This document shows, in pieces, positions 47-41,400 of a DNA stretch of 42,268 bases. The stretch comes from Anaerococcus senegalensis JC48 (GTDB lineage Bacteria; Bacillota; Clostridia; Tissierellales; Peptoniphilaceae), in the NCBI RefSeq assembly GCF_000321005.1, contig NZ_HE578907.1:870389-912656 (forward strand). Direction: 5' to 3'. The number at the start of each line of letters is the position of its first letter. The first letter of the stretch is position 1. The notes beneath the pieces were generated by a model. That model saw nothing but the letters and a program-made list of their open reading frames with translations. It made no database searches and was not told the origin of the DNA. A program made the translations under genes and the position numbers.

Positions 47-120
47 TGGCACGCCAAAGAGGAATTGAACCCCTATCTTAAGCTTCGGACACTTTTGTTT
101 TACCATTAAACTATTGGCGC
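47..120 (-). tRNA. tRNA-Arg (anticodon CCG)
   Basis: A 74-nt cloverleaf with encoded CCA. The acceptor GCGCCAA pairs with TTGGCGT (G1-U72 wobble), the D stem is GTTT/AAAC, and the T arm carries TTCAATT. The anticodon loop GTCCGAA places CCG at positions 34-36, so it reads CGG Arg codons. The closing base pair of the anticodon stem is an A-A mismatch. The 5' end overlaps the last 10 bases of the phosphoesterase gene, whose stop codon TAG is tRNA bases 8-10. A possible own promoter (-10 TATAAC, 127-132, with a poor -35) would lie inside that coding region. Confidence 0.9.
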
Positions 121-5014: not shown

Positions 5015-6946
5015 CTACTTTCTATCTTCTGGTACATCCATTTTAATGAATTGATCTTTACCTTCTCCTGAAACTGGTGAAACCCAAGAATCTGGTAATT
5101 TATCGAATGGTGTTCCTGGTTCAATTCCATTTTCTGGATCTCCTTCTTCTGGATTATATTCATATCCTGAACCTAAATCTACATAGATTGGATTTGTAGG
5201 AGCCATTTTTCTTGGTTTTGATCTTTTGATTTTTTTCATAGGTGGTGCTGGTTTCTTTTCTTCACCATTATCTAATTCTTTGATTAGAAGTGGAAGAATT
5301 TCCATAGCATCTCCAACTATACCATAATCACAGTTATTGAAAATTGGTGCATTTTTAGAATTATTAATTGCAACAATTGTTGAAGCATTTTTAATTCCTT
5401 TTAAGTGTTGACCTGCTCCAGATACACCTACACCAATGTATAAGTTTCCTTTAAATGTTTGTCCACTCATACCAACGTATCTATTAATATCAACATATTT
5501 TAATGTTTCTGCTACTGGTCTTGATGATGAAATAGCTGCACCTGCTTGATAAGCTAAATCTTCTATCAATTTCATATTTTCTTTATCACCTATACCACGA
5601 CCTGCTACTACTATTCTTTCAGCATCTGGTATTGGTGTGTAAGGATCAATTCCTACAGTAAAGTCATATCCGTCCTTTTGAAGTGCTGCGACAAGCTTTT
5701 TAACTGCTTCCTTAGGATCTCCCTCATAGATTTCTCCTTTTCTGACTCCGGCAATGGGTCCAGATTTTTTGTTAGATCCAACAGTTTTAACTTTTGGTGC
5801 TCTACCAACAGTATGAGCTCCAACAACTACTCTCATTATTTCATTTGTACCTTCGTAGATTTGTGTAATCTTAGAATCTCTGTAGAATCTTTCAACATCG
5901 ATACCTTTGATAAATCCAGATCCACCGTACATTTGTAATGCTTCATTTGTAATTTTTGATGCAAGATCAGATGCAAATTGTTTAGCCATAGCTGCGTCTG
6001 CAGAATATCTTTCGTGATTTTCTTTCATTTCAGCAGCAGAATAAATCATAAGTCTTGCAGCTTTTAAATATGTTGCCATATCAGCAAGTTTAAATGTATT
6101 TGCTTGAAGGTGAGCTATTGGCATACCAAATTGTTCTCTTTCTTTAGCATATGATAGAGCTGATTCATAAGCACCTTGAGCAATTCCTAGAGCTTGTGAA
6201 GCTATACCAATTCTACCACCATCAAGAGTTGCCATAGCAATTTTAAATCCTTGACCTTCTTTTCCAAGTAGATTTTCTTTAGGAACTTTTACATTATCGA
6301 AATGTAATTCGGCTGTACATGAAGATCTAATACCTAATTTATCGTAGTGATCAGAACATGTAAATCCTTCCATGCCTTTTTCAACAATAAATGCTGAAAT
6401 ACCATGAGTTCCAATTCCTGGAGTTGTTACTGCAAATACTACATATGTATCTGCTTTTGGAGCGTTAGTAATAAATATTTTTTTACCATTTAATATATAT
6501 CTTTCGCCATCCAAATCTAGTTCAGCTGTTGTTTCAGTTCCACCTGCATCAGATCCAGCATTTTCTTCTGTAAGACCAAATGCACCGATTTTTTCACCTT
6601 TTGCTAAAGGAGTTAAATATTTTTTCTTTTGTTCTTCAGTACCAAAAGCAAAAATTGGCCAAGAACCTAAAGATGTATGTGCAGAACAAATTACTCCAAC
6701 ACCACCATCTACTCTTGATAATTCTTCAACTGTGATCGCATAGCTCATTACGTCTAAACCTTGACCACCGTATTTCTTAGGATAAGGAATTCCTAAAAAT
6801 CCTAATTCTCCCATTTCCTTTACTATTTCGTCAGGAAATTCATTATTTTGATCAAGTTCAAAAGCTATTGGTTTAACTTTTTCTTCAGCAAATTCTCTGA
6901 CTTTTTTACGTAAAGCTTCATGCTCATCTGTTGTTTTAAAAAGCAT
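5015..6946 (-). CDS. Acyl-CoA dehydrogenase/EtfA C-domain/Cys-less rubredoxin-like fusion
   Basis: A 643-aa three-module protein. Residues 1-380 are a complete short-chain acyl-CoA dehydrogenase with the flavin/substrate segment [14 protein letters not shown] (122-135), the RXXFG motif region, and IYEGTNE with catalytic Glu365. Residues 440-560 match the FAD-binding C-terminal domain of electron-transfer flavoprotein alpha (GRGIG 449-453, RPVAE 476-480, SGAGQHL 509-515, CDYGIVGD). The N-terminal EtfA domain is missing and no EtfB is encoded nearby. After a Lys/Pro-rich linker (560-583), residues 586-636 align along their length with rubredoxin ([32 protein letters not shown]). The four iron-binding Cys positions are Asp590, Ser593, Ser623 and Ser626. 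ATG at 6946 follows AGGAGG. It leads the operon with fprA. Confidence 0.93.
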
Positions 6947-7311: not shown

Positions 7312-8527
7312 ATGCAATTTATAAAAAAAGTTTATGACAATATTTATTGGGTTGGCGCCAATGATAGGGCATTAAAAAGATTTGAAAATATGTTTACCCT
7401 ACCTAATGGTGTTTCTTACAATTCATATATTATAAAAGATGATAAAAACGTATTGATGGATGGTTCTGATTCTTCTGTAATTAGAACTTATCTTGATAAT
7501 GTTGAATCTGCTCTTGATGGGGAAGATTTAGACTATATTGTAGTTCAACACATGGAACCTGATCATTGTGGATCTATTGATTTTATCCTAGATAAATATC
7601 CTAATTGTAAATTTGTAGGAAATCAAAAAACTATTAAATTTTTCCACCAATTTTATCCAAATGATAAATTTGATGAAGATAGATTTGTTGAAATTAAAGA
7701 TGGGGATGAATTAAACATTGGTAAAAGAAATTCAAAAGTTTGTTTTTGCTCCAATGGTACACTGGCCAGTAGTATTTACGACATATGAAACAACTGAAGG
7801 TTTATTCTTCTCAGCAGATGCTTTCGGTTCTTTTGATGTTCTCGAAGGACATATTTCTGCTAAACACTACATCAAAAAACAATCATGGCTTGATGAAAAT
7901 AGAAGATATTATATAAATATAGTTGGAAAACAAGGTAGAATGGTAACAAATCTTCTCAAAAAAGTTTCTGATTTTGAAATTAATGCAATCTTCCCTCTTC
8001 ATGGACCAGTTTATGATGATAAAGAATCTATTGAATTTATTCTTGATAAATACGATAAATGGGCAAATTTCAAGCCTGAAAGTAAGGGTGTAGAAATTGT
8101 ATTTTCTTCAATGTATGGAAATACAGAGCTTGCTGCTGATGTTTTAGCTTCAAAACTTGATGAACTTGGAGTTGAAGAAATCAAATTATATGATGTTTCA
8201 GATACTGATTATTCATATATTATTGCTGATAGCCATAAATATTCTAACCAAGTATTTGTTGCAATGAACTATAATGCAGGTCTTTATCACAAAATGGATG
8301 CTCTTTTAAGAGAATTAGTAGGAACTGGATATCAAAACAGACACATCTCATTCATCCATAACTTCTCATGGGGTGGAAAATCTCTAGAACAAGCAAAAGA
8401 AATTCTTGAAAGTGGAAAACATGAATATATTGGAGAAGATTTCATTATAAATTCTTCTATGAAAGATGATCAAGAAAAAACTCTTGAAGATTTAGCTAAG
8501 GCTATTAAAGAAGATTTAGATAAGTAA
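7312..8527 (+). pseudogene. fprA: Second FprA flavodiiron protein, split by a frameshift
   Basis: Two overlapping frames together make a full flavodiiron protein of about 405 aa. The first frame (7312 to about 7735, stop 7788) gives the N-terminal half with VVQHMEPDH. The second frame (open from 7718, stop 8527) gives APMVHWP, SADAFGSF, LHGPV and the flavodoxin loop SSMYGNTE. Removing one A from the tract AAAA at 7734-7737 restores GKRNSKFVFAP. That has the same length as GKHEYTFVEAP in the intact paralogue at 3764-5002, so a single extra base in 7722-7741 explains the break. All diiron ligands and the rest of the reading frame are intact, so inactivation is recent, phase-variable or a sequencing error. 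It has its own promoter, RBS and terminator. Confidence 0.88.
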
Positions 8528-8602: not shown

Positions 8603-10111
8603 TCAGTCTTTTGGTTTGTCTTCATCTGGGATGTTTTTGTTATCATATGGAGATTTATAAATTGATTCTTTAGCAAATTGTTTTACTGCTTTTCCTGTTT
8701 TAAGTTCTGAAATTAAGGTTCCAGGTCCTCCAACGCATCCTCCAACACATGCCATTCCTTCTAATAAAAGTCCATCTTTTCTTCCAAGTTTTGCCATTTG
8801 TGCTAGTTTTACACAATCAGCAAGTCCTTCTGCTTTTTCAACTTTTACATCTAAGTCTGGATTTATTTCTACAATTCTTCTTTTTACAGCTTCAGCTACT
8901 CCTCCGCTTACTGCATAATTTCTTCCAGTTTCTGATGCATCTTGCCATTCTTCATCTACTTTTATTTCTGCAGGATCAATGTCTTTTGATAAGAACATTC
9001 CCATCAATTCTTCATAAGTTATTACATAATCAATTGTTTCTGCAACTTCTGGTCTTCTTGCTTCAAGTTTTTTAGATATACATGGACCTATAAAAGCTAC
9101 TTCTGCTTGATCATCCATTTTTTTGATGTGTTTTCCTGAATAAATCATAGGTGTTGATGATTCAGAAATTTTATCGTTTATTTCTGGGAATTTTTTCTTT
9201 ACCATTAATTTCCATGAATAGCAACATGATGTACCCATAAATGGAATTTTTTCTGGAACACTTTCTACATATTCATGTGCTTCATTTAGAGTAGTTAAAT
9301 CTGCTCCCAGTCCGACTTCTATTACATCTTTAAAACCTAATTGTTTTATTGCTTCTTTTATTTGAACAGGGGATGCCATTTGTCCAAATTGTCTTACAAA
9401 TGATGGAGCAACTATAGCATATACATGTTGATGTGTATTTAGTGCTTTTGCTAATTGATAAATTTCTGTTTTATCAGATATCGCTCCAAATGGACAAGCT
9501 GTTATACATCTTCCGCAAGCTACACATTTATCATCATCTATTTCTGCTCTACCTAATTGATCGCTTTTTATTGCTTTTACACCACAAGCTTCTGCACATG
9601 GTCTTTTTGTATGAGCAATTGCATTGTATGGACAAGCTTGAACGCATTTTCCACATTTAATACATTTTTCTTGGTCAATTATTGATCCATCTGATGTATA
9701 AGTTATTGCATTTTTTGGGCATACATTTACACATGGGTGAGCAATACACGCTCTACAAGTATTAGTTACTTCAACTCTATTTTCAGGACATGCTTCACAA
9801 GCAATTTTTATAACTGAAACGAGTGGTGGCTCATATTTTTTTATATCAAAATCTTCATCATCAAGTCCATCTGTTATAGCTCCAGTATTATCTGCAGTTC
9901 TTGCATGAAGACCTACTCCCATTCTAAGTCTTTCGCCCATTACAGCTCTTTCTCTAAAAATATTTTCTCTGTAAGATGCTTCTTCTCCTGGAAGTATGTC
10001 AAAAACTTCTGTTGCTATATCATATATTGGCCTATTTTCAAAAGCAATTTTTGCTATATGTTCGAAGGCCATTCTTCTAATATTTAATATGTTTATGTAT
10101 GTTTCTTTCAT
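8603..10111 (-). CDS. Monomeric [FeFe] hydrogenase with N-terminal ferredoxin clusters
   Basis: A 502-aa iron-only hydrogenase, interconverting H2 with protons and electrons at the H-cluster. The Cys-rich N-terminal part (105-210) has several 4Fe-4S motifs: CEACP, CRACIAHPCVNVCP (119-132), CIKCGKCVQACP (150-161), CAEAC and CVACGRCITACP (196-207). The H-cluster domain (230-475) has TSCC (294-297: C296 proton relay, C297 ligand), GPCISKK with C344, and EGMACVGGC with C455 and C459. The first motif continues with Tyr-Ser-Trp where most families have Pro-x-Trp. Length and layout suit the group B monomeric enzymes. A [2Fe-2S] ferredoxin gene lies 22 bases upstream. HydE, HydF and HydG maturases are not in the window. 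Direction in vivo (H2 release versus sensing) is unknown. Confidence 0.92.
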   Translation of the reverse strand: MKETYINILNIRRMAFEHIAKIAFENRPIYDIATEVFDILPGEEASYRENIFRERAVMGERLRMGVGLHARTADNTGAITDGLDDEDFDIKKYEPPLVSVIKIACEACPENRVEVTNTCRACIAHPCVNVCPKNAITYTSDGSIIDQEKCIKCGKCVQACPYNAIAHTKRPCAEACGVKAIKSDQLGRAEIDDDKCVACGRCITACPFGAISDKTEIYQLAKALNTHQHVYAIVAPSFVRQFGQMASPVQIKEAIKQLGFKDVIEVGLGADLTTLNEAHEYVESVPEKIPFMGTSCCYSWKLMVKKKFPEINDKISESSTPMIYSGKHIKKMDDQAEVAFIGPCISKKLEARRPEVAETIDYVITYEELMGMFLSKDIDPAEIKVDEEWQDASETGRNYAVSGGVAEAVKRRIVEINPDLDVKVEKAEGLADCVKLAQMAKLGRKDGLLLEGMACVGGCVGGPGTLISELKTGKAVKQFAKESIYKSPYDNKNIPDEDKPKD

Positions 10112-10133
10112 TATTTATTCTTTCCTTTAAATA

Positions 10134-10424
10134 TTATTTAAAATTATTTTCAAATGCCTTATCTAATATGTACTCCATGATAACTTGTGTTTTAGCATTT
10201 GTAAATACTTTTCCATCAACAATTACAACTGGTGCATTTTTTTTATTTTTTTTACACTTGTCGTTACAAGTTACCATTTCTATTTCTAATTCTGTTTCTT
10301 GTATTTCTAAATCTTCTTTGTATAATCTATCATTAAATTCTTCTACAAAGTCAGATAATCTGTTATAGATTATATCAGATCCTAGCATAGTACATCTTGC
10401 TCCTGCACAAACTTCTATCTTCAT
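10134..10424 (-). CDS. Thioredoxin-like [2Fe-2S] ferredoxin (NuoE-like)
   Basis: A 96-aa small protein with C6 and C11 (CAGARC) near the start and C53 and C57 (CNDKC) in the middle. This C-x4-C...C-x3-C pattern is that of the thioredoxin-fold [2Fe-2S] ferredoxins found as HydA partners and as the NuoE C-terminal domain. Tandem Lys/Asn residues follow the last Cys, then APVVIVDGKVF, typical of the fold's C-terminal beta strands. It is first in a two-gene operon with the hydrogenase and probably passes electrons to or from it. The RBS AAGGAG lies 6 bases before ATG. Two overlapping TATAAT-type -10 boxes lie at 10456-10467. Confidence 0.85.
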   Translation of the reverse strand: MKIEVCAGARCTMLGSDIIYNRLSDFVEEFNDRLYKEDLEIQETELEIEMVTCNDKCKKNKKNAPVVIVDGKVFTNAKTQVIMEYILDKAFENNFK

Positions 10425-10455
10425 ATTTACTCCTTAAATTTTTTTATAATTACTC

Positions 10456-10490
10456 ATTATAATTATATCAAATAAATATAAATTTTAAAA
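10456..10490 (-). promoter_or_regulatory. Candidate promoter for ferredoxin-hydrogenase operon
   Basis: In the 66-base gap after the sensor kinase gene, the minus strand reads TATAATTATAAT, giving two adjacent -10 hexamers (10462-10467 and 10456-10461). The -35 candidates are AT-rich and weak. No terminator separates the kinase gene from this point, so read-through from the pst operon is also possible. Confidence 0.4.
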
Positions 10491-12110
10491 TCATTTATAA
10501 GGAATTGATATTATAAATCTAGTTCCATAACCATATTTACTTTCTACTTTTATATCGTAGTTTAAATAATCGCATATATGTTTTACAATTGATAAACCTA
10601 GTCCTGTCGATTTTAATGTTCTTGTTCTTTGTTTATCTGCAACATAAAATCTTTCAAAAATTCTTGGTAGATCCTCTTTTTTAATTCCTATGCCTTTATC
10701 TTCTATAATTAATTTAATAAATCTTTTACCTTTAATGTATTTTATAGCTATTTGACCATTTACCTTATTATATTTTATTGCATTTTCATAAATATTTGTT
10801 ATTAGATCTGTAAAAAGAGATTCATGAGTTCTAATATATATATCATCAATTTCATTTAATATCTTTATATTTTTTTTGTCTGTTAGTCTATTAAATCTTT
10901 GGATGCAGGATTCTACTACATTTTTAATATTTATTTCATTTCTACCTTCTTCAAGATTTTCTTCATCTAGTTTTGATAATTTTAATATGTCATCAATTAT
11001 ATTTAAAAGTCTGTTTCCTTCTTCATTTATTATTTGTCCAAATTTCTTTATATCGTTATTTTTTACAAGACCTGTAGCAATTAGTTCAGCATATCCATTT
11101 ATACTTGTAAGTGGAGATTTTAATTCATGAGTTACATTTGCAGTAAATTCTCTTCTCATTATCTCAGCTTTTTTATTTTTAGAATCATCTATTACTATGA
11201 TAATATAAGAAACAATTTCTTTATCGATTATAGGATCAATAAAGAGTTTTACACTTATTTCATCAATATCTATGCTTATATTTTTTCCTCGTTTTAAAAG
11301 TCTTGTTTGTCTAAGAGCTAACTTATAGTCATCATTATCAACTAAATTATCTAATTTTTGATCTCTTTTTATTCCTAATAAATTTTTAGCAGCTTCATTT
11401 AAAACTTGAATATTGCCATTTTTATCAAAATAAATAAAGCCTTCTTCCATATTAGAAGTAATCTTTTCTATATTTAAAATTCTTGATTTTAGTTTCAAAT
11501 TTTCTTCTATTAGTAAATTCTTTTGATTATTAAAATTTTCTATATAAAATTTGGGATCATTTTTAAAGTTATTAAATTCTTTTTTATCATTAATTCTATC
11601 TTTAAAAGGATTTAACAGTTTTTCATGTAATGAATTAGTAATATAGATATTTATTAAAAGTGCTAATAAAATACCTATTATTAATAAATATGATTTTTTA
11701 AAAATATAAATAACGAGACTATCATTATAATATTTGATAGCTAAAATTCTTCCCTTATATTTTTTTGCAAAATTATTTTCTTCTTTTCTTATAAAATTTT
11801 TCTTAAATTTTTTTACTATATCAGTATTATCAAATTCATAATTTTTTATTATATTTATGTCAATTCCAGAATTATACAAAACTTTCCCATCACTATCTTT
11901 CAATAGAATATCAAGATTGTAAGAATTCTTAAAATCATCTAAATTATCTTTATCAATATCCCTATAAGTAAGAAAGCTCAAGGAATTTTCTACAAATTCA
12001 TCTTGAGCTTTTTTTTCTTTATTATATGAAAATAAACAAGATACTATAAAAATAATAAAAATAAGCGAACTTGTGATAATATTAATATTTCTATTAATTA
12101 TTTTTTTCAT
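10491..12110 (-). CDS. phoR: PhoR-type sensor histidine kinase
   Basis: A 539-aa membrane sensor kinase. TM1 is about residues 11-28 and TM2 about 140-158, flanking an extracytoplasmic region of about 110 residues. A PAS-like segment follows (215-310, MEEGFIYFDKNGNI). The HisKA domain has phospho-acceptor His328 in VTHELKSPL. The ATPase domain has an N box around NIYENAIKYN (439-448), DKGIG (471-475) and GLGLSIVKH (503-511). It overlaps the response-regulator gene by 4 bases. Gene order after pstB and phoU makes phosphate starvation the likely signal, relayed through PhoU and the Pst transporter as in PhoR systems. Confidence 0.9.
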   Translation of the reverse strand: MKKIINRNINIITSSLIFIIFIVSCLFSYNKEKKAQDEFVENSLSFLTYRDIDKDNLDDFKNSYNLDILLKDSDGKVLYNSGIDINIIKNYEFDNTDIVKKFKKNFIRKEENNFAKKYKGRILAIKYYNDSLVIYIFKKSYLLIIGILLALLINIYITNSLHEKLLNPFKDRINDKKEFNNFKNDPKFYIENFNNQKNLLIEENLKLKSRILNIEKITSNMEEGFIYFDKNGNIQVLNEAAKNLLGIKRDQKLDNLVDNDDYKLALRQTRLLKRGKNISIDIDEISVKLFIDPIIDKEIVSYIIIVIDDSKNKKAEIMRREFTANVTHELKSPLTSINGYAELIATGLVKNNDIKKFGQIINEEGNRLLNIIDDILKLSKLDEENLEEGRNEINIKNVVESCIQRFNRLTDKKNIKILNEIDDIYIRTHESLFTDLITNIYENAIKYNKVNGQIAIKYIKGKRFIKLIIEDKGIGIKKEDLPRIFERFYVADKQRTRTLKSTGLGLSIVKHICDYLNYDIKVESKYGYGTRFIISIPYK

Positions 12111-12766
12111 ATCTCTCCAAGTTTATATCCTAAATTTCTTACAGTTTTTATGTGTATTCCTGCTGATTTTAATTTGTTTCTAAGACTTGCTATGTGGACA
12201 TCAACCGTTCTGGTTTCTCCCTCATAATCATAGCCCCAAATTTTTAATAGAAAATCTTCTCTCGTAATTACATTACCAATGTTTGCCATAAATAACAAGA
12301 GCATTTCAAATTCTTTATAAGTTAAATCAATTTTTTTGCCATCAATTTTTACAGTTCTTTTTTTGATATTTACTTCAATATTTGCATAAGTTAAATGCTC
12401 TCTATCCTTTTTCTCGCTTCGTCTTAATACAGCTTTTACCCTAGATATTAATTCTAAAATTGAAAAAGGTTTAGTAATATAATCATCTGCACCACTTTCA
12501 AGTCCTAAAACTTTATCATATTCACCGTCTCTTGCAGTAAGCATTATTATTGGCACAGTTGAAAACTCTCTAATTTCTTTTAATATTTCCAAGCCATCTT
12601 TTTCAGGTAACATTACATCAAGAATTAATAAATCCACGCTTTCTTTTCTTACCAAATCTACAATATCCAGACCATCTTCAAACCCTTTAACTTGATAATC
12701 TTTTTCTGATAAGGCATATAATACTAAATTTCTAATTGCCTTGTCATCTTCTACAACGTATATCAT
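12107..12766 (-). CDS. phoP: PhoP/PhoB-type response regulator
   Basis: A 219-aa OmpR/PhoB family regulator. The receiver domain (1-115) has the acidic pair E6-D7-D8, phospho-acceptor D50 in LILDVMLP, the switch Thr in MLTARD and Lys in YITKPF. The C-terminal winged helix (125-219) has the recognition region TRTVDVHIASLRNKL. It overlaps phoU by 4 bases upstream and the kinase by 4 bases downstream. TTTACA-type repeats before both pstS genes are the expected binding sites for a PhoP of this class. Because it lies at the end of the operon it controls, positive autoregulation is likely. Confidence 0.9.
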   Translation of the reverse strand: MIYVVEDDKAIRNLVLYALSEKDYQVKGFEDGLDIVDLVRKESVDLLILDVMLPEKDGLEILKEIREFSTVPIIMLTARDGEYDKVLGLESGADDYITKPFSILELISRVKAVLRRSEKKDREHLTYANIEVNIKKRTVKIDGKKIDLTYKEFEMLLLFMANIGNVITREDFLLKIWGYDYEGETRTVDVHIASLRNKLKSAGIHIKTVRNLGYKLGEI

Positions 12767-13389
12767 AATCTTGTTGAATAATCAGCTATTTTTGCTAGCC
12801 TATCTCCAAGCCTTTCAAAATATTTATAAAAAAGTACTTTTTCTGATAATTCCATAGGTGTAATTAGGTCTGATTTAGTTAGTTTTACAAGATAATGGAT
12901 ACAATCTTCAAATAATTTATTATTGATTTCATCATCTTCTATAGTTTTTAAGGCAAGTTCATTATTATTATCTTCAAAACTTTGAATTCCATTTAAATTC
13001 ATATTCTTTTGATTTTTTATAAAAGTTTTTACAAAATCCTTCTCTTCAGCTCTTAAAGGAAATTCTAAAATAATTGCAGCAGCTTGAGCTATGTGATTAG
13101 ATACTCTTTTATAAGTTGATGCTAATTTTATTGACATTTGTAAAAATCTTAAATCTTTAGCTACAGGTTGTTGAAGAGCTAACAAATCATAGCAAAATCT
13201 TTCAATATCTGCTGCATATTTTCTAATATCATGATCAAGATCAATTATTTCTTCTAGGTTAATTTTTTGGTCATTTTCAAGATAAAGTTTAAACCTATCA
13301 TAAGATAATTGAATTAAATCTGATATGTTTTTTTCCATTTGTCTAATATTTTCTAAATCTTCTATATATCTTGTTCTCATATCAGCCAA
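12763..13389 (-). CDS. phoU: Phosphate transport regulator PhoU
   Basis: A 208-aa, mostly helical protein of usual PhoU length, with two similar three-helix bundles. Each has an E/D-rich metal-binding motif: [12 protein letters not shown] in the first and [17 protein letters not shown] in the second. PhoU links Pst transporter activity to the sensor kinase and prevents excess phosphate uptake. The N-terminus ([15 protein letters not shown]) matches the family start. It overlaps pstB by 8 bases and the response regulator by 4, consistent with tightly coupled translation. Confidence 0.92.
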
Positions 13390-14233
13390 ACCTTCCTGTT
13401 ATATAATCTTCTGTTCTTTTATCTTTAGGATCATTAAATATTTTTTTTGTCTCATCCATTTCAAGAACTTCTCCAGTCAAGAAAAATGCTGTTTTATCTG
13501 AAATTCTTGCTGCTTGTTGCATATTGTGAGTAACTATTACTATAGTATATTTACCCCTTAAATCTTCTAATAATTCTTCAATTGATGCTGTTGAAATTGG
13601 ATCTAGGGCACTTGTAGGTTCATCCATCAAAATAATTTCTGGATTTACAGAAAGAGCTCTTGCTATACAAATTCTTTGTTGTTGTCCACCAGAAAATGAT
13701 AGGGCATTTCTGTCTAGTTTATCCTTAACTTCATCCCATACACTTGCTGATTTTAAAGATTTTTCTACTATTGCATCAAGTTCATCTTTATCTTTGATTC
13801 CATCAATTTTTGGACCATAAGTAATATTATCATAAACAGATTTAGAAAAAGGATTTGGAGTTTGGAATACCATTCCTACATTTCTTCTTAGACTAACTAC
13901 ATCAATGTCTTTTTTATTTATATCTTTTCCATCAATTTCTATAAGACCTTTTATATGACAATCAGCAACTAAATCATTCATCCTATTAAAACATTTTAAA
14001 GTTGTAGATTTACCACAGCCACTTGGTCCTATAAATGCAGTAATTTCATTTTCTTTAATTTCCATATTTATTTTTTTTAAAGCTTGAAAATCTCCATAGA
14101 ATAAATCTAAATCTTTTACATTTATTATAGTTTTTCTATCTTTATTTAAATTCGATTCATTATTTCCAAAAAAAGTTTTTATCCTTGTTTCATTATTTGT
14201 TAAATTACTATTTATATCTTTTGTTTTTTCCAT
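13382..14233 (-). CDS. pstB: Phosphate ABC transporter ATPase PstB
   Basis: A 283-aa ATPase energising phosphate import through PstCA. Walker [10 protein letters not shown] (69-77), Q-loop VFQTPNPF, signature [10 protein letters not shown] (178-187), Walker [13 protein letters not shown] and switch His in VTHNMQQA are all intact. It carries about 35 extra residues at the N-terminus, rich in Asn and Lys, ahead of the usual start of the domain ([11 protein letters not shown]). The ATG at 14233 has a good GGAG 7 bases upstream, so the extension is probably translated. It lies between pstA (10-base gap) and phoU (8-base overlap). Confidence 0.95.
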
Positions 14234-14243
14234 TATTATCTCC

Positions 14244-15044
14244 TTATTCTATTATTGCTTTTGATATTTTTGCTGATACAAAGTTTAAAACTATTACAAA
14301 AATAAGTAATAGTACTGCAGTTGCATAAGCCTCATTCACATGAAATCCTTCAGTTGATAATACATACATATGAACTGCCATTGTTCTTGCAGAATCAAAT
14401 AAGGATGAAGGTGTTTTCGCAACTGTTCCCATAGTATAAATTAATGCAGCTGATTCTCCAACTATTCTACCAGTTGACAAAAATATTCCTCCCAAAATTC
14501 CATTTATAGCTTCTGGAATTACTATTTTAAAAATTGTTTGAATTTTTGTTGCTCCAAGAGCCAAAGATGCATGAGCTTGAAGAGGATTTACATTCAAAAT
14601 CGCCTCTTCTGTAGTTCTAATTATTGTGGGTAGAATCATTATAGCCACTGTCAAACATCCTGCTATTAATGAGTATCCTAAATGTAGGGCATCTACAAAA
14701 AATAAATATCCAAACAAACCATACACAATCGATGGAATTGATGAAAGAATCTCTGTTGCAAATCTTACAGATTTTATCAAAAGTTTATTTTTTGCATATT
14801 GAGATAAATAAATCGCCGTAAATATACCAATCGGGATGGTTATAATTAGAGTAATTATTATTGACAAAAATGTCGTAACCAAAGCTGGTATAATTGAAAC
14901 ATTTTGTGATGTATATTTTAATTCAAAAAGTGATGGAGAAATATTTGGTATACCATTAAATAAAATATAAGCGATTATTATTCCTCCCACAGCAAATCCT
15001 AAAAGTGATAGGATATAAATTAATATTTTAAAAGAATTTTTCAT
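14244..15044 (-). CDS. pstA: Phosphate ABC transporter permease PstA
   Basis: A 266-aa integral membrane permease with about six membrane segments, starting with one at residues 7-30. The ABC coupling loop [20 protein letters not shown] contains the EAA-type motif that contacts PstB, and [11 protein letters not shown] is typical of PstA. It forms the import channel with PstC. It starts 9 bases after pstC and ends 10 bases before pstB. Confidence 0.94.
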
Positions 15045-15053
15045 CTTTCACCT

Positions 15054-15914
15054 CTACATTCTTGATTGATCTTTATCTCTGATAAAGTTAAATATTATAT
15101 TTATCAAAAGAATAAATACAAATAATACCATACCTGTTGCTATAAGTGATTCTCTGTGAAGACCTGATGCATAGCCCATCTCTAAAACAATATTAGTTGT
15201 AAGAGTTCTTACTCCATCAAGTAAAGATCCTGGCATTCTTGGTTGATTTCCAATAACCAAATACACAGCCATTGTCTCACCAATTGACCTACCAATTGCA
15301 AGAATTATTGATGAATAAATACCGCTTTTTGCATAAGGAACCATAACTTTTCTAATAGTTTCTTCTTTTGTTGCACCCAGTGCAAGGGAACCTGTATAAA
15401 AAACTGAAGGTACTTGCTCTAATGAATTTTTTGAAATATTTACCATAGTTGGAAGAATCATTATTGCTAATAAAATTGATGCAGTTAACATATTCATTCC
15501 TCCAGTTTTAAATGTTTTTGAAATAAATGGAACCAAAACCATCATTGCAAAAAATCCATAAATTATTGAAGGAATTGCTGCCATCAAATTTATAAGGCCA
15601 TTCAAAAAATTATATGATTTTTTAGAATAATAAGCCAAATATATTGAAACAGCAAGACCAAAAGGAACTGCAATTAGGGCAGAAACTAAAGTTACTAAAA
15701 TTGAACCTAGAATCATTGGTCCAATTCCAAAAAATGCTGGTTTTGCAGTAGGTGCCCATTTTGTTCCAGTAATAAATTTTAAAAGTCCATATTGATTAAC
15801 AAAATTAATTCCTGATTTAAAAATAAAAAATGTAATTAAAATTATTAAAATAATAGACATTATGGCAGAAATCAAAAATACAATTTCACCAAATTTTTCT
15901 TTTATTGATTTCAT
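15054..15914 (-). CDS. pstC: Phosphate ABC transporter permease PstC
   Basis: A 286-aa membrane protein with six predicted segments. PstC hallmarks are present: GTKWAPT near residue 50, the coupling loop [19 protein letters not shown], and SIGETMAVYLVIGN. It heterodimerises with PstA. Its start follows directly on the end of the second pstS, whose stop is at 15915, so the two are translationally coupled. That makes the diverged pstS at 15915-16778 the one most tightly linked to the permease. Confidence 0.94.
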   Translation of the reverse strand: MKSIKEKFGEIVFLISAIMSIILIILITFFIFKSGINFVNQYGLLKFITGTKWAPTAKPAFFGIGPMILGSILVTLVSALIAVPFGLAVSIYLAYYSKKSYNFLNGLINLMAAIPSIIYGFFAMMVLVPFISKTFKTGGMNMLTASILLAIMILPTMVNISKNSLEQVPSVFYTGSLALGATKEETIRKVMVPYAKSGIYSSIILAIGRSIGETMAVYLVIGNQPRMPGSLLDGVRTLTTNIVLEMGYASGLHRESLIATGMVLFVFILLINIIFNFIRDKDQSRM

Positions 15915-16778
15915 TTATCTTAACTCTCCTGTATTTGTAATCTCTCCTTTATAAATATCTCTAAGTTGTTTTAAACTTAAGTTATTTATCTCTTTATTAT
16001 CCTTATTTACAATAATTGCAATTCCATCAATTGCAAAAACTTCAGATGATAGATTTTTATCTTCTAATTTATTTGAAATCATAGCTATATCAACCACTCC
16101 ATCTTTTACATTTTTAAGCCCTGTAAGAGATTCATTCGATAAAACTTCCACTTCAACATCTTTATTTAATTTTTCATAATTTTCTGCAAGTTTTTCAACA
16201 ACTGAACTAAGTGAAGATGATCCAGTTATAGTTAATTTTCCTTTTAGATCTTTTGATTTATATTCTTTCTCATTGGTAATAGCAAGAAGTCCATCTTCTT
16301 CAATTAGTTTTTTTGCACTTTTACTTTTTACATAAGTCAAAAAATCTTTTGACAAATCTGTCAATGAATCTTTTTTGTAAGCAAGTCCAAAAGGTCTTTG
16401 CAATTTATAATCTCCACTTTCAATACTATCTTTATTTGGACTAATTCCATCAATCTTTACAGCTTTTACACTATCATCCAAAGCTGTAAGAGATACATAA
16501 GCAATTGCAGTCTTATCTACTCCAACTGCTTTCAAAACTCCATTTGTAGAATTAATTACCATAGAATTATCTGTAGTCATATCTTCGTGATTTCCTTTTT
16601 CATCTTCTTTTATCAATCCAACTTGTTCAATAAAACTTTTTTTAGTTCCTGAACCATCTTCCCTACTTGTAACTGTAAGGTCAAAATTTTTACCATCTAT
16701 AACATTATTTTGATTTTTACCTGAACATGAGCTTAGTAAAATTAATGTCGATAGAAATAATAATAATTTTTTTACCAT
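15915..16778 (-). CDS. pstS: PstS-like phosphate-binding lipoprotein, circularly permuted and diverged
   Basis: A 287-aa lipoprotein (lipobox LSSC, Cys18). I chose ATG 16778, 6 bases after AAAGGAG; the frame is open 15 codons further up without an RBS. Canonical PstS has a GSTSV-type loop first and the REDGSGT loop in its second half. Here SREDGSGT (38-45) follows the linker directly and the GSSSL-type loop comes at 186-190. The protein ends with LRDIYKGEITNTGELR, which in canonical PstS lies just before REDGSGT. The phosphate-contact segments of the displaced half are altered compared with the upstream copy (TGSSAG to NESLTG, SREL to SNKL), so ligand affinity may differ. It is preceded by its own Pho-box-like repeats and abuts pstC. 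Confidence 0.88.
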   Translation of the reverse strand: MVKKLLLFLSTLILLSSCSGKNQNNVIDGKNFDLTVTSREDGSGTKKSFIEQVGLIKEDEKGNHEDMTTDNSMVINSTNGVLKAVGVDKTAIAYVSLTALDDSVKAVKIDGISPNKDSIESGDYKLQRPFGLAYKKDSLTDLSKDFLTYVKSKSAKKLIEEDGLLAITNEKEYKSKDLKGKLTITGSSSLSSVVEKLAENYEKLNKDVEVEVLSNESLTGLKNVKDGVVDIAMISNKLEDKNLSSEVFAIDGIAIIVNKDNKEINNLSLKQLRDIYKGEITNTGELR

Positions 16779-16844
16779 AAAAACTCCTTTATTTCTTTCT
16801 CTACATAATAATATTAAATACATATATCAAATAAATAAATCTTA

Positions 16845-16870
16845 TGTAAAATATATGTAAAGTTTGTAAA
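16845..16870 (-). promoter_or_regulatory. Candidate Pho box before proximal pstS
   Basis: On the minus strand three TTTACA hexamers occur at 16865-16870, 16856-16861 and 16845-16850, with start-to-start spacing of 9 and 11 bases. This matches the Bacillus-type PhoP site, repeats of TT(A/T/C)ACA about 11 bases apart. The last copy could act as a -35, with an AT-rich -10 near 16823-16828. It lies between the distal pstS terminator and the proximal pstS start, giving the latter its own phosphate-controlled promoter. Confidence 0.7.
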
Positions 16871-16877
16871 TAATAAA

Positions 16878-16912
16878 AATAAGCTCAAAGGAAGTTTTCC
16901 TCTAAGCTTATT
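16878..16912 (-). terminator. Hairpin between the two pstS genes
   Basis: On the minus strand a 16-bp imperfect stem runs from AATAAGCTTAGAGGAA to TTCCTTTGAGCTTATT, with two G-U pairs and a 3-base loop, followed by a short U-rich stretch. It begins 8 bases after the distal pstS stop. It may terminate, attenuate or protect the distal pstS mRNA so that the binding protein is made in excess over the permease. Confidence 0.65.
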
Positions 16913-16919
16913 TTAATAA

Positions 16920-17879
16920 TTATTTGCTTAATTCAGATGTGTTTTTAACTTTTCCTGAGAATATTTCTTTTAATTGATCTTTGGTAAGATCATTTATTTT
17001 TGTATCATCTTTATTAACTACAACTGCTATTCCGTCTTTTGCTAAAACTTCAACTTGTAATTTATCTTTTTCTTCATCTTTTAATTCTCTTGATGCCATA
17101 GCAATTTGACTTACATCCGAAATTGTAGATTCAATTCCTGCAGATGATCCTGTTGATTGAATTTCTATATTTGCATCTGGATTTACATCTTTATATTTTT
17201 CTACAAGTTTTTCCATAAGTGGAGTAACTGATGTAGAACCTGCAATTGTTAAGTTACCCTTGATTTTTTTTGCTTCATAATCTTTAGCTTCAACTTTAAT
17301 ATATCCTTCTTTTCCTACAATTTCTTGAGCATCTTTACTAAGTACAAATGCTAAAAAATCTTTTGCTAAATCATCAAGCTTTTCTTCTTTAAATGCAAGA
17401 TTAAATGGTCTTTGAAGAGTATAATCACCAGCTTCAATATTTTCTTCAGTAGCTTCTGCACCATCAACTTTTACTTTTTGTACACTATCATTTACGCTTC
17501 CTAATGAAACATAACCAATTGCTGATGGGTCTTGAGATACAGTTTGCATTACACCATTTGTAGAATTTTGTACAACAGCTTCATCAGTTGTTAAATCTTT
17601 CTTTTCGCCATCTTTTTCTTCTTCAAGACCAACAAGTTCAATAAAAGCTCCTCTTGTTCCAGAACCATCTTCTCTTGATACTACAGTTATATCAAAATCT
17701 TCTTGATTAGATTTAGCTGTATCTCCATCTTTTTTTTCATTAGCAGTGCTTGCACTTTCAGTTTGACTGGATCCATTTGATCCATCATTTGCCTTATTAT
17801 CCTTATTTCCACAAGCTGACAAAATCATTGATAATGAAAGTGCAGCAACAATTATTTTTGAATTTTTAATTTTCATCAT
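16920..17879 (-). CDS. pstS: PstS phosphate-binding lipoprotein, circularly permuted
   Basis: A 319-aa lipoprotein with lipobox LSAC (Cys23) and a Ser/Asn/Lys/Glu-rich linker to about residue 60. The order of binding loops is inverted relative to known PstS: SREDGSGT comes first (68-75) with QNSTNGV and AIGYVSL, the segments that normally form the second half. Then come GSTSV (214-218), TGSSAG (243-248), SREL (263-266) and DGIAVVVN, which normally open the protein. It ends with LKEIFSGKVKNTSELSK, the canonical hinge that usually precedes the REDGSGT strand. All binding motifs are intact, so phosphate binding is expected. A second ATG (17876) has the better distance from AAAGGAG (6 bases against 3) and may be the true start. 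It is first in the pst operon behind a candidate Pho box. Confidence 0.9.
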   Translation of the reverse strand: MMKIKNSKIIVAALSLSMILSACGNKDNKANDGSNGSSQTESASTANEKKDGDTAKSNQEDFDITVVSREDGSGTRGAFIELVGLEEEKDGEKKDLTTDEAVVQNSTNGVMQTVSQDPSAIGYVSLGSVNDSVQKVKVDGAEATEENIEAGDYTLQRPFNLAFKEEKLDDLAKDFLAFVLSKDAQEIVGKEGYIKVEAKDYEAKKIKGNLTIAGSTSVTPLMEKLVEKYKDVNPDANIEIQSTGSSAGIESTISDVSQIAMASRELKDEEKDKLQVEVLAKDGIAVVVNKDDTKINDLTKDQLKEIFSGKVKNTSELSK

Positions 17880-17948
17880 TTACTCCTTTAATATTTGTAA
17901 CTTCATTATGAATAATAAAGCTTATTTATTTTAAAATGATTATCTAAT

Positions 17949-17965
17949 TGTAAAATTTATGTTAA
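17949..17965 (-). promoter_or_regulatory. Candidate Pho box before distal pstS
   Basis: On the minus strand TTAACA (17960-17965) and TTTACA (17949-17954) are spaced 11 bases start to start, matching TT(A/T/C)ACA repeats. A further ATTACA at 17980-17985 is 20 bases away and overlaps the -35 of the divergent asnA promoter, so it is uncertain. The site is about 70 bases upstream of the pstS start. Confidence 0.6.
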
Positions 17966-17978
17966 TTTATTTAATATC

Positions 17979-18006
17979 TTGTAATTTAAAACAAAACACA
18001 TATAAT
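17979..18006 (+). promoter_or_regulatory. Promoter of asnA
   Basis: TTGTAA (17979-17984), a 16-base spacer and a perfect TATAAT (18001-18006), 35 bases before the asnA start. It is divergent from and closely spaced with the pstS Pho box, so PhoP binding could affect it. Confidence 0.65.
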
Positions 18007-18041
18007 TTAATAGTAAAAAAAAATTAGTAATAGGAGAGAAT

Positions 18042-19055
18042 ATGTACGATATAAAAATACCAGAAAATTATCAAAGTGATAAAAATTTATATAAGACACA
18101 ATTGTTAATAAAGGAAATAAAGGATTTTTTCCAAATAAATTTATCTAATAATTTAAATTTAAAAAGAGTAACAGCACCTTTATTTGTAGAAAATTCTACT
18201 GGTCTTAATGATAACCTATCTGGTGTTGAAGAGCCTGTTAAATTTACACTTCCAGAAGCAAACAACGCCAATATGGAAATTGTCCATTCTCTTGCAAAAT
18301 GGAAAAGATATGCCTTAAAAGAATATAATTTTGCAATGTATGAAGGATTATATACTGACATGAATGCAATTAGAAGATGTGAAGAGCCTGACAATACTCA
18401 TTCTTTCTACGTTGACCAATGGGATTGGGAAAAAATAATTAAAGATACCGATAGAAATGTTGATTATCTAAAATCAACAGTTCTTACAATTTTTAATACT
18501 TTAAGAGCCTTGGATGAATATCTTTGTAAATTAATTCCAAAAAGAGTTAAACTCTTACCAAATGATATTAAATTTTTAACTAGTCAAGAATTAATTGATG
18601 AATTTCCAGAATGTAAAGACAGTAAGGAAAGAGAAAAAGCTGCATGTAAAAAATATAAGGCTGTATTTTTAATGCAAATTGGAAAAGTTTTATCAAATGG
18701 AAAAGTTCATGATATGAGATCTCCAGATTATGATGATTGGAACTTAAATGGTGATATTTTAGTTTACAATCCAGTTCTAGATGACCAATTAGAATTATCA
18801 TCAATGGGAATAAGAGTTGATTCTAAAACTTTAAAAGAACAATTAAAAATTGCTGATTGTGAAGATAGATTAAAATTCAAATATCATAATTTGCTTATAA
18901 ACAATAAACTTCCACAAACAATAGGTGGAGGAATCGGACAATCTAGGTTATGTATGTTCTTTTTACAAAAAGCTCATATAGGAGAAGTTCAAGTTTCATA
19001 TTGGCCAGATGAATTAAGAGAAGAATTGAAGAAAAAATCAGTAAATTTATTATAA
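18042..19055 (+). CDS. asnA: Aspartate-ammonia ligase AsnA
   Basis: A 337-aa ammonia-dependent asparagine synthetase, making asparagine from aspartate, ammonia and ATP in the cytoplasm. It is related to class II aminoacyl-tRNA synthetases. It has full family length and the usual landmarks: GLNDNLSGVEEPV (54-66), LAKWKRYAL, the segment MNAIRRCEEPDNTHS, YVDQWDWEK, and the motif-3-like GGGIGQSRLCM near the end. ATG follows AGGAGAGA. It is a single-gene transcript between its own promoter and a strong terminator. Using ammonia rather than glutamine suits an anaerobe living on amino acids. Confidence 0.96.
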   Translation: MYDIKIPENYQSDKNLYKTQLLIKEIKDFFQINLSNNLNLKRVTAPLFVENSTGLNDNLSGVEEPVKFTLPEANNANMEIVHSLAKWKRYALKEYNFAMYEGLYTDMNAIRRCEEPDNTHSFYVDQWDWEKIIKDTDRNVDYLKSTVLTIFNTLRALDEYLCKLIPKRVKLLPNDIKFLTSQELIDEFPECKDSKEREKAACKKYKAVFLMQIGKVLSNGKVHDMRSPDYDDWNLNGDILVYNPVLDDQLELSSMGIRVDSKTLKEQLKIADCEDRLKFKYHNLLINNKLPQTIGGGIGQSRLCMFFLQKAHIGEVQVSYWPDELREELKKKSVNLL

Positions 19056-19063
19056 TTTTGTAT

Positions 19064-19096
19064 AAAAAAAAAGGACTTATTAGAGTCCTTTTTTTA
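19064..19096. terminator. Bidirectional terminator asnA/recQ
   Basis: Stem AAGGACT/AGTCCTT with a 6-base loop (19071-19090) has an A run before it and a T run after it, so it works both for asnA (plus) and recQ (minus), which converge here. Confidence 0.85.
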
Positions 19097-20881
19097 TTGG
19101 TCAAATTCTTTAATTTTTTCTATAAAAATTTTTCCGTATTGTTTTAATTTTTTATCTCCAACTCCCTTAATTTTTAAAAAATCTTTTTCATTTTTAGGTT
19201 TTAATTTTGCCATTTCTGACAAAGATGCATCAGAGAATACTATAAAAGGTGGGATATTTCTTTTTCTTGAAATTTCTAATCTTAATTTTTTTAAATTATT
19301 AAATAAATCACTATTATAGGAAATATTTTCACTAAATTTATCAATTTTTTCTTTTTTATTTTCTTCTTTTAAATCTCTAATATAAATTTTCTTTTTAGAA
19401 AATAAAACTTGTTTAGATTTTTCATTTAATTTTAAAATGGGATATTTTAGTCCAGAAACCTTTATATAACCATCAGCAACCAATACTCCTATCAAATCTT
19501 TAATATATTTAGAAGATTTATCTTTCATTATTCCAAATGTAGAAAAATTTTTTAAATTTTTTTCTTTAGAATTTTTATTATTTGATCCTTTCAAACAATC
19601 CACAATAGTAGAAATTCCATATCTTTGATCAAGCCTATAAATACAAGATAAAACTTTTTGACTATCAATACTAGCATCAATTTTTTCATAATCATCTAAA
19701 CAATTAGAGCAATTATCACAGTTTTCTTCTGAATCTTGACCAAAATATTCTAGGATAAATGATCTTAGACACTTACTTGTATTTACATAGTTTATTATCG
19801 TTTGAAGTTTTTCAAGTTTTATCAGTTGATATTGTCTATTATTAGTTTGAGAAATCAAATATTTATTTACAACAATATCTTGGCCAGAATAAAGTAGGAT
19901 AGCATCTGATTTTTCTCCATCTCTTCCTGCCCTACCTGCTTCTTGATAATATGATTCCATATCTTTAGGCATATTCATATGAATTACATATCTTACATCA
20001 GACTTATCAATTCCCATCCCAAAGGCATTTGTTGCTATAATTATATTTTTCCTATCATAAATAAAATCTTCTTGATTTTTCTTTTTTTCTTTATCGGATA
20101 AACCAGCGTGATAATAAGTTACATCATAAGATAACTTTTTTAAATATTTATAGCAAGTTTCAACTCTTTTTCTTGTAGATGCATAAATTATTCCAGACAA
20201 GTCTTTTTTATCTTTTAAATAATCCCTTATATAAGAAAGTTTATCCTTTGGCTTTCTAACTTCAAACAATAGATTTTCCCTATCAAAACCTGTTACTTTT
20301 ACAAAAGGATTATTCAAGCCAAGGTTTTTTATAATGTCTTCTCTTACAGATGATGTAGCAGTAGCAGTAAAGGCTGCTATTTGAATTTTTTTATCAAATA
20401 AATCATAAATTTGAGGAATTATTTTATATGATGGTCTAAAATCATGTCCCCACTGAGAAATACAATGAGCCTCATCTACTGCTATAAATGAAATATTTAG
20501 ATTTTTTATAAAGTTAATGAAAAATTCATTTTCTAATCTTTCGGGAGAAATATATAAAATTTTAATTTTATTATTTTTTATTTTTCTTAAAGTATTTGTA
20601 TAAGCTTCTATATCCTGGCTAGAATTTATAAAGGCTGCATCAATACCATTTTCGATTAATGAATCAACTTGGTCTTTCATAAGTGAAATTAAAGGAGAAA
20701 TAACTAAACAAATTCCATCAATCATTAAAGCTGGTAATTGATAACAAATCGACTTTCCTCCACCAGTTGGAAGAACGCCTAATACATCTTTACCTTCTAA
20801 AATATTTTTAATTAATTCCTCTTGTCCTTTTCTAAAAGAATCATATCCAAAATATTTTTTCAAATTATCTAAAATATCCAT
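19094..20881 (-). CDS. recQ: ATP-dependent DNA helicase RecQ
   Basis: A 595-aa 3'-5' DNA helicase of recombination and repair. Motif I is TGGGKS (39-44), motif II DEAH (136-139) followed by CISQWGHDFRP, and motif VI is YYQEAGRAGRDG. The RecQ C-terminal zinc site is visible as a Cys cluster, KCLRSFILEYFG then CDNCSNCLD (about 370-400). A winged-helix region follows and then an HRDC domain (about 520-592). The length is usual for bacterial RecQ. It starts 43 bases after the DUF4097-like gene, separated from it by a hairpin terminator. Confidence 0.95.
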   Translation of the reverse strand: MDILDNLKKYFGYDSFRKGQEELIKNILEGKDVLGVLPTGGGKSICYQLPALMIDGICLVISPLISLMKDQVDSLIENGIDAAFINSSQDIEAYTNTLRKIKNNKIKILYISPERLENEFFINFIKNLNISFIAVDEAHCISQWGHDFRPSYKIIPQIYDLFDKKIQIAAFTATATSSVREDIIKNLGLNNPFVKVTGFDRENLLFEVRKPKDKLSYIRDYLKDKKDLSGIIYASTRKRVETCYKYLKKLSYDVTYYHAGLSDKEKKKNQEDFIYDRKNIIIATNAFGMGIDKSDVRYVIHMNMPKDMESYYQEAGRAGRDGEKSDAILLYSGQDIVVNKYLISQTNNRQYQLIKLEKLQTIINYVNTSKCLRSFILEYFGQDSEENCDNCSNCLDDYEKIDASIDSQKVLSCIYRLDQRYGISTIVDCLKGSNNKNSKEKNLKNFSTFGIMKDKSSKYIKDLIGVLVADGYIKVSGLKYPILKLNEKSKQVLFSKKKIYIRDLKEENKKEKIDKFSENISYNSDLFNNLKKLRLEISRKRNIPPFIVFSDASLSEMAKLKPKNEKDFLKIKGVGDKKLKQYGKIFIEKIKEFDQ

Positions 20882-41163: not shown

Positions 41164-41237
41164 TGGAGGCGCCACCCAGATTTGAACTGGGGATAAAGGT
41201 GTTGCAGACCTCTGCCTTACCACTTGGCTATGGCGCC
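41164..41237 (-). tRNA. tRNA-Cys (GCA)
   Basis: A 74-nt cloverleaf with encoded CCA: acceptor GGCGCCA/TGGCGCC, anticodon loop CTGCAAC with GCA, and T loop TTCAAAT. Last of three tRNAs in one operon. Confidence 0.97.
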
Positions 41238-41241
41238 ATAT

Positions 41242-41316
41242 TGGAGCGGAAGACGGGATTCGAACCCGCGACCCTCGCCTTGGCAAGGCGATACTCTACC
41301 ACTGAGCCACTTCCGC
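41242..41316 (-). tRNA. tRNA-Gly (GCC)
   Basis: A 75-nt cloverleaf with encoded CCA: acceptor GCGGAAG/CTTCCGC, anticodon loop TTGCCAA with GCC, and T loop TTCGAAT. Middle gene of the tRNA operon. Confidence 0.97.
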
Positions 41317-41324
41317 ATTTTTTC

Positions 41325-41400
41325 TGGTGCCCAGAGGCGGAATCGAACCACCGACACGGGGATTTTCAGTCCCCTGCTCTACCGACTGAGCTATCTGGGC
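41325..41400 (-). tRNA. tRNA-Phe (GAA)
   Basis: A 76-nt cloverleaf with encoded CCA: acceptor GCCCAGA/TCTGGGC, anticodon loop CTGAAAA with GAA, and T loop TTCGATT. First gene of the tRNA operon, about 15 bases after the -10 box. Confidence 0.97.

Follow-up and report, generated by a model that had tools for sequence, protein, structure and literature searches.

We found that two adjacent genes in a 42,268-nt stretch of the Anaerococcus senegalensis JC48 genome (contig NZ_HE578907.1; hereafter the window, meaning this whole stretch) encode PstS phosphate-binding lipoproteins whose two halves stand in the reverse of the usual chain order. Taken together, the data are best explained by permuted PstS lipoproteins working in a PstSCAB importer, with a permutation that would have arisen in a forebear of a large lineage within Bacillota and a gene duplication that came later within the genus, a reading to which we assign a probability of about 0.9. 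PstS features in textbooks as a binding protein, and family models simply assume its chain order.

The distal open reading frame (ORF; 16920-17879, minus strand) and the proximal one (15915-16823, minus strand) lie where the original prediction had placed them. In both proteins the chain runs from a lipoprotein signal through a linker to the SREDGSGT half (C-half) and only then to the half that carries GSTSV in the distal and GSSSL in the proximal protein (N-half). The features of the two genes, with their supporting evidence in brackets, are as follows.

16920..17879, minus strand: distal pstS, first in the operon, 319 aa, permuted, C-half then N-half (ORF, Pfam/NCBIfam, half-specific models, rotation scan)
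17811..17879, minus strand: distal PstS signal peptide and lipobox Cys, ..MILSAC (read by eye from the translation)
17298..17699, minus strand: distal C-half, SREDGSGTR ... GYIKV, residues 61-194 (half-specific model, E 2e-67)
17280..17297, minus strand: distal linker from the old C end to the old N end, residues 195-200 (gap between the half-specific matches)
16929..17279, minus strand: distal N-half, GSTSV, STGSSAG, MASREL ... SGKVKNTSEL, residues 201-317 (half-specific model, E 2e-53)
15915..16778, minus strand: proximal pstS, 287 aa from the likely ATG, permuted order as in the distal gene, altered pocket residues (ORF, half-specific models, start analysis, pocket alignment)
16287..16688, minus strand: proximal C-half (half-specific model)
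15921..16262, minus strand: proximal N-half, GSSSL, SNESLTG, MISNKL (half-specific model, pocket alignment)

Hidden Markov models (HMMs) specific to each half were built for this analysis. They matched the distal protein at residues 61-194 (C) and then 201-317 (N), and the proximal protein at 47-180 (C) and then 189-302 (N), the latter numbered in the stop-to-stop frame. For the proximal gene, ATG 16778 is a likelier start than ATG 16823, with AAAGGAG just upstream of it and a product of 287 aa. Both PF12849 (PBP_like_2) and TIGR02136 matched each protein in two stretches, and in the best of these the final part of the chain was aligned with the model's first half. The whole-protein PF12849 scores of 109.8 and 118.8 bits exceeded the gathering cut-off of 27 bits.

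We also rotated the mature chains residue by residue and aligned them with ten collinear PstS proteins, five from Clostridia-type genomes and one each from Vibrio, Treponema, Chloroflexota, Acidobacteriota and an archaeal bin. Scores were 150-318 in the native order and 262-554 at the best rotation, 1.7 to 2.0 times higher. The best cut fell at mature residues 118-150 in 20 of 20 comparisons (two proteins against ten), a span that covers the last helix of the C-half, the linker and the chain up to the strand preceding the GST loop. In the controls, which paired both proteins with Protein Data Bank (PDB) entry 4H1X and also comprised three pairs of collinear PstS, the peak lay no more than 5 residues from the native order. 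Collinear PstS have the GST-loop N-half before the REDGSGT-loop C-half; in both window proteins C precedes N, with the same break, and both are collinear with 4H1X. Judged from their sequences, the two proteins are circular permutants, and the SREDGSGT-first order claimed for both in the original prediction was recovered by the half-HMMs, the split Pfam/NCBIfam matches and the rotation scan alike.

For both proteins the best match in the PDB was 4H1X ('Phosphate-binding protein pstS 2'), which we take to be PstS2 of Streptococcus pneumoniae. It aligned in one collinear stretch with each window PstS (E 4.3e-61 and 8.6e-54), while 4Q8R, 4GD5 and 1TWY could be aligned with the distal protein only in two pieces of exchanged order. 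Since 4H1X is collinear with both window proteins, the permuted order is already present in a deposited structure, and 4H1X also falls inside the permuted clade of the PstS tree described below. Nothing found spoke for an assembly or frame artefact, which would have to explain why a relative with 96% identity, 129 unique ORFs and a solved structure share the order, and we give it practically no weight. The view that this is an ordered permutation and no assembly error is thus backed by many other genomes besides 4H1X.

The permuted order is not private to this genome. A search of related genomes for the same order, which the original prediction had proposed, was run on 148 genomes drawn evenly from the class at a match threshold of E <= 1e-14. 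It gave matches in 70 genomes, of which 29, from 21 families, held one full-length permuted match; in one more the match was cut by a contig end. In the family of the window, 101/129 genomes matched a permuted query at E <= 1e-16, and the matches listed spanned both halves. A phylum sample at E <= 1e-45 yielded matches in 15/398 genomes, 13 permuted and 2 with the doubled genes described below, and 4/299 genomes from the class of a Virgibacillus genome held a full-length permuted match. Named holders among the matches listed include Fusicatenibacter, bins of Lachnospiraceae, Oscillospiraceae and Peptococcaceae, and Adlercreutzia (Actinomycetota). It should be noted that 20 phage records also matched, 19 of them without annotation.

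Among 250 unique ORFs scored for architecture, a set collected by PstS queries rather than a census, 129 were permuted (C-N; two of them incomplete), 115 collinear (N-C) and 5 doubled (N-C-N-C), and one was a half fragment that is part of a gene lying in two frames; three more permuted ORFs were read beyond the 250. With later HMMs, the permuted ORFs had 12-28 residues between the two half matches (12-19 in 128/129; the value of 28 belongs to locus L053), and in 120/129 the chain ended 2-4 residues past the N-half match. The break falls within the loop that links '..W.E' to the strand preceding REDGSGT. This is presumably a surface loop of the second PstS lobe, so the lipid anchor would now lead into that lobe. 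The permuted chain reads lipid anchor, linker, strand before REDGSGT, old C-terminus, short linker and old N-terminus (GSTSV), and ends in the loop past IFSGK..xxSEL. As for the claim that both chains end at the hinge, the shared break holds and the word 'hinge' is loose: placed on the PstS fold, the chain end would lie in a loop beyond the first crossover and the helix that comes next. We infer that the fold and the phosphate pocket are as in ordinary PstS, with the anchor and the chain ends moved to the other lobe, and that the distal copy may bind phosphate and dock on PstC/PstA.

The origin of the permuted form was studied in a PstS tree with multi-phylum collinear context, comprising 32 permuted and 60 collinear rows. 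Identity cut-offs applied before the trees reduced 130 to 87 rows and 230 to 92 rows; L104 and L081 were left out of the multi-phylum tree, and the 69-aa piece of the proximal gene of genome G003 and L080 (cut by a contig end) were left out of all trees. Of the 32 permuted rows, 31, including both window PstS, formed one clade (support 92/77; 98/88 for 30 of them) nested among the 60 collinear rows, with the collinear L046 adjoining it (93/89). In a PstC tree of 77 rows with a neighbouring PstC of at least 180 residues, the 27 rows from permuted operons, two of which are the same window PstC, formed one clade with a long stem and a Shimodaira-Hasegawa-like approximate likelihood ratio test (SH-aLRT) support of 100 (quick tree).

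The collinear order probably came first, a polarity based on the many phyla in which collinear PstS occur and on a Vibrionaceae root that we chose. The opposite polarity, with the permuted order ancestral and the collinear order derived, draws on the fact that the tree program infers no root. It is very unlikely because, among the named loci of the best 80 matches, collinear PstS occur in Pseudomonadota, Chloroflexota, Acidobacteriota, Spirochaetota, Thermodesulfobacteriota and archaeal bins, and the nine permuted ones comprise eight from Bacillota and one from Actinomycetota (Adlercreutzia, L236, which was dropped by the identity cut-off). Furthermore, the permuted rows nest inside the collinear ones under the Vibrionaceae root.

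We propose, with collinear PstS as the starting form, that a forebear of a large Bacillota lineage underwent the permutation and that the permuted PstS was then inherited together with a distinct PstC lineage. Most likely, a collinear pstS would have been duplicated in frame and would then have lost its first N-half and its last C-half. Alternatively, pstS may have been split into two half genes that fused in the other order. This would agree with the fact that no doubled gene was seen within the permuted clade, where no doubled stage is preserved. However, the 250 architecture-scored ORFs included no separate half genes, and single-frame doubled genes exist in three lineages, which makes fission and fusion quite improbable; half genes could be under-sampled, since the loci were fetched mostly by long matches.

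A protein of N-C-N-C architecture is the textbook intermediate of circular permutation. Five single-frame proteins of 531-586 aa (L043, L044, L045, L260 and L261) have this layout and belong to three lineages (f8, f10 and f222). Their copies were 73-89% identical inside a protein and 45-65% identical between lineages, which suggests a separate doubling in each lineage. The inner C-N core of L043, L044 and L045 aligned with permuted proteins without rearrangement, and PstC/PstA lie downstream of these three genes; L260 and L261 entered the identity comparison only. The doubled proteins thus resemble the permuted PstS in the order of their inner core, and differ in retaining whole collinear copies that are alike within a protein. 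We considered L043, L044 and L045 as direct ancestors of the permuted clade and rejected this, as their copies group first with one another and next with nearby collinear PstS. The doubled genes appear as side branches, in which the first step of duplication and trimming does occur.

Gene conversion between tandem copies is a known process, and the likeness of the copies in 5/5 doubled genes could also reflect one old doubled gene whose copies were kept alike in this way, instead of three recent doublings. Against this, the L045 copies grouped with L106 (99/97) and those of L043/L044 with L051 (86/92); both partners are single-copy, and such groupings would demand several later losses after one old doubling, so that this alternative is unlikely. 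An order search found at least 3/198 genomes with one, and none was among the matches listed in 391 class genomes at E <= 1e-62, where 34 genomes matched. Seven more rows of the order search with open-frame figures of 595-897 (G010, G021, G041, G330, G216, G282 and G309) proved to be single permuted genes of 293-334 aa. A profile search of genome contigs with an alignment led by a doubled protein returned mostly collinear PstS in its best 80 and says nothing on frequency.

Several results weigh against the proposed history and function. Neither window PstS reached the whole-protein TIGR02136 cut-off of 206.6 bits (140.2 and 201.8 bits), as expected since TIGR02136 is a collinear model. The clade of 31 permuted rows was not starred. 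In a first tree with all 43 permuted rows, the order label needs three changes, because L081 joins the collinear L104, both being long branches of which the program warns; with L104 removed, it needs two. One origin for all permuted rows was not rejected by the approximately unbiased (AU) test (p = 0.159 in the set without L104 and 0.123 in the set without L104 and L081). As the doubled proteins that were placed in trees are not ancestors of the clade, they show the duplication route only to be open. In addition, Pst1 is reported to be the main low-phosphate system of S. pneumoniae, where a single deletion of pst2-phoU2 did not lower phosphate uptake (PMC4913102). In favor of activity in this relative, the same study reports that the pst2 operon is constitutive, that either Pst system is enough at 1 mM phosphate, and that a double deletion of pst1-phoU1 and pst2-phoU2 in an unencapsulated strain lowers uptake by ~50% (PMC4913102).

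One permuted PstS stands apart from the rest. It belongs to locus L053 of genome G033, in the family of the window, and is permuted at the same loop as the main clade.

L053:3070-6462: permuted PstS operon, with a 425-aa PstA that matches collinear-PstS operons over its length

The ten best matches of the L053 C-half were all collinear, led by L123, L125, L047 and L131 (101 to 93 bits), and the first permuted match followed at 81.6 bits. The six best matches of its N-half were also collinear, with a small lead (72.4 vs 69.3 bits). Its PstC is nearest to those of L179, L131, L124 and L123, which are collinear operons, and the nine best-match loci were collinear operons or a repeat of one. Among the best 12 loci for the 425-aa PstA, two collinear ones, L179 and L047, were alone in aligning over ~400 residues, against 201-251 for the others, in a comparison where many loci are too short to contain pstA. 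L053 is thus likely to represent a second permutation event at the same loop in another Pst lineage.

A single permutation behind all permuted PstS, L053 included, would require that fast evolution drew L053 and its permeases towards the L131/L179 lineage. Its branches are indeed very long (1.81 in PstS and 3.22 in PstC), the PstC join with L131 has a support of only 73, the AU test leaves one permuted clade unrejected at p = 0.123, and a whole-chain query with L053 had permuted proteins as its six best matches in the family (40-43%). We regard this as doubtful, since both halves and the PstC find their best matches, and the PstA its only full-length ones among the best 12 loci, in collinear operons as described above. 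At least two PstS permutations at the same loop, each in its own Pst operon lineage, with doubled genes that keep arising in the same phylum, form a somewhat favored wider picture.

The window pstS genes adjoin pstC, pstA, pstB and phoU, the hallmark of a Pst importer. On the minus strand the gene order is pstS, second pstS, pstC, pstA, pstB, phoU, response regulator and histidine kinase. The neighboring genes and candidate signals are as follows.

15054..15914, minus strand: pstC permease (TIGR02138 over cut-off)
14244..15044, minus strand: pstA permease (TIGR00974 over cut-off)
13382..14233, minus strand: pstB ATPase (TIGR00972 over cut-off)
12763..13389, minus strand: phoU (PF01895 over cut-off; TIGR02135 under its cut-off)
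12107..12766, minus strand: response regulator, PhoP-like by position (PF00072 and PF00486)
10491..12110, minus strand: histidine kinase, PhoR-like by position (PF00512 and PF02518)
17949..17965, minus strand: Pho-box-like TTAACA-N5-TTTACA upstream of the distal pstS (exact site)
16845..16861, minus strand: Pho-box-like TTTACA-N5-TTTACA upstream of the proximal pstS (exact site)
16876..16914, minus strand: terminator-like hairpin between the two pstS (only such site found at 10000-19500)

The whole window contained two exact Pho-box-like sites, one before each pstS, against 0.34 expected, and two or more occurred in 3/100 shuffles of the window. When one mismatch was allowed, the count was at chance level. 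Within the genus, an exact site preceded pstS in 22/22 single-copy loci; in two-copy loci it preceded the distal gene in 5/8 and the proximal gene in 7/8. The hairpin is weak evidence alone, with one found at 10000-19500 and 1.7 expected in shuffles. Across the fetched loci, a PstC- or PstA-like gene lay within 1.5 kb downstream on the same strand of 112/114 permuted and 102/112 collinear ORFs. The chain order, the shared breakpoint, the operon and the Pho-box-like sites can all be read from the DNA itself, and the window PstSCAB importer is probably under phosphate-starvation control.

A second pstS copy was present in 8/31 genomes of the genus and adjoined the distal copy in all eight loci read. 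This distribution, together with the position of both window copies in a permuted clade of many families, indicates that the permutation preceded the duplication, as the original prediction had argued. The permuted gene would thus have been duplicated later, within the genus, and the proximal copy would have diverged at the pocket. Phosphate-touching residues were assigned on our understanding of E. coli PstS. By that assignment, the phosphate-contacting loops are intact in the distal copy only (SREDGSGTR, GSTSV and MASREL), in line with what had been predicted for it, and the proximal copy differs at two conserved positions, with Glu for Gly (SNESLTG instead of STGSSAG) and Asn for Arg (MISNKL instead of MASREL). 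GSSSL, SNESLTG and M[IV]SNKL were common to 8/8 proximal copies. Asn at the Arg position occurred in 8/114 permuted rows, precisely the eight proximal copies, and Arg was found in 112/112 collinear rows. One of the eight proximal genes is split over two frames:

L010:496-1367, minus strand: proximal pstS of G003, in two frames of 227 and 69 aa, the only one of the eight (half-HMM reading)

We read the proximal copy as having changed or lost its ligand, and not as an ordinary phosphate binder. That it no longer binds phosphate at all, being either a receptor for another anion or a decaying duplicate, is marginally favored: Glu and Asn replace residues that are otherwise conserved or nearly so, the stem branch of the proximal copies is 0.64, and the G003 copy is split over two frames. 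However, Asp stands at the Gly position in 37/114 permuted rows, so the Gly change alone is not out of range. The identical changes in all eight proximal copies and the Pho-box-like site kept in seven of them suggest a retained, changed function rather than decay.

Other features of the window were noted away from the pst genes. A minus-strand gene at 5015-6946 encodes an acyl-CoA dehydrogenase fused to the alpha subunit of electron transfer flavoprotein (ETF-alpha) and a C-terminal rubredoxin domain (PF00301, E 1.7e-13). No cysteine is left in this domain (residues about 594-633), which makes its usual iron binding impossible. An ODP/flavodiiron-type flavoprotein lies in two overlapping plus-strand frames (7312-7788 and 7718-8527), and its paralogue at 3764-5002 (minus strand) in one; the split may be due to a frame error, decay or a frameshift. 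Three transfer RNA (tRNA) genes cluster at 41167-41400 (minus strand), and one lies near the window edge at 50-120 (minus strand).

In the open-access literature searched, we found no description of PstS as permuted and no text mentioning '4H1X', and 'permut' is absent from the main text of PMC12421899, PMC4913102 and PMC12096839. The negative is weak evidence of absence because most subscription journals were outside the search. The original statement that no description of the order was known stands to that extent, although the protein type itself is common and present in the PDB. Permuted PstS is thus a known protein type whose topology has gone unremarked within the open-access literature searched. 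A large lineage with the same parts in a different chain order, anchored through what would be different lobes, offers natural proteins for studying what anchoring and topology do to folding, to closing and to the docking on PstC/PstA. The doubled genes, present in several lineages, suggest that the initial step of duplication and trimming toward circular permutation recurs. If at least two permutations did occur, PstS would be a natural laboratory in which both precursor and finished permutation can be sampled, and the main permuted lineage would have kept a distinct permease partner.

Compared with collinear PstS (TIGR02136; 4GD5, 4Q8R, 1TWY; E. coli 1IXH), the window proteins have the same halves, motifs and operon, but their halves are in reverse order and they score below the curated cut-off. 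With 4H1X they are collinear over nearly the whole domain, and all three belong to the permuted clade. The 4H1X protein is presumably part of a second Pst system beside the collinear PstS1 (4LAT in the database record), whereas a PF12849 search of the window genome found no PstS type besides the permuted one. A precedent for the phenomenon is TpMglB-2 (Tp0684), described in PMC4990184 as a circularly permuted type I glucose-binding lipoprotein with Gram-positive occurrences too, for which its authors proposed a 'Type Ic' class and suggested tethering as a reason. Like the window PstS, it is a natural circular permutation of a solute-binding lipoprotein of an ATP-binding cassette (ABC) system; it differs in belonging to another class of binding proteins and in its ligand.

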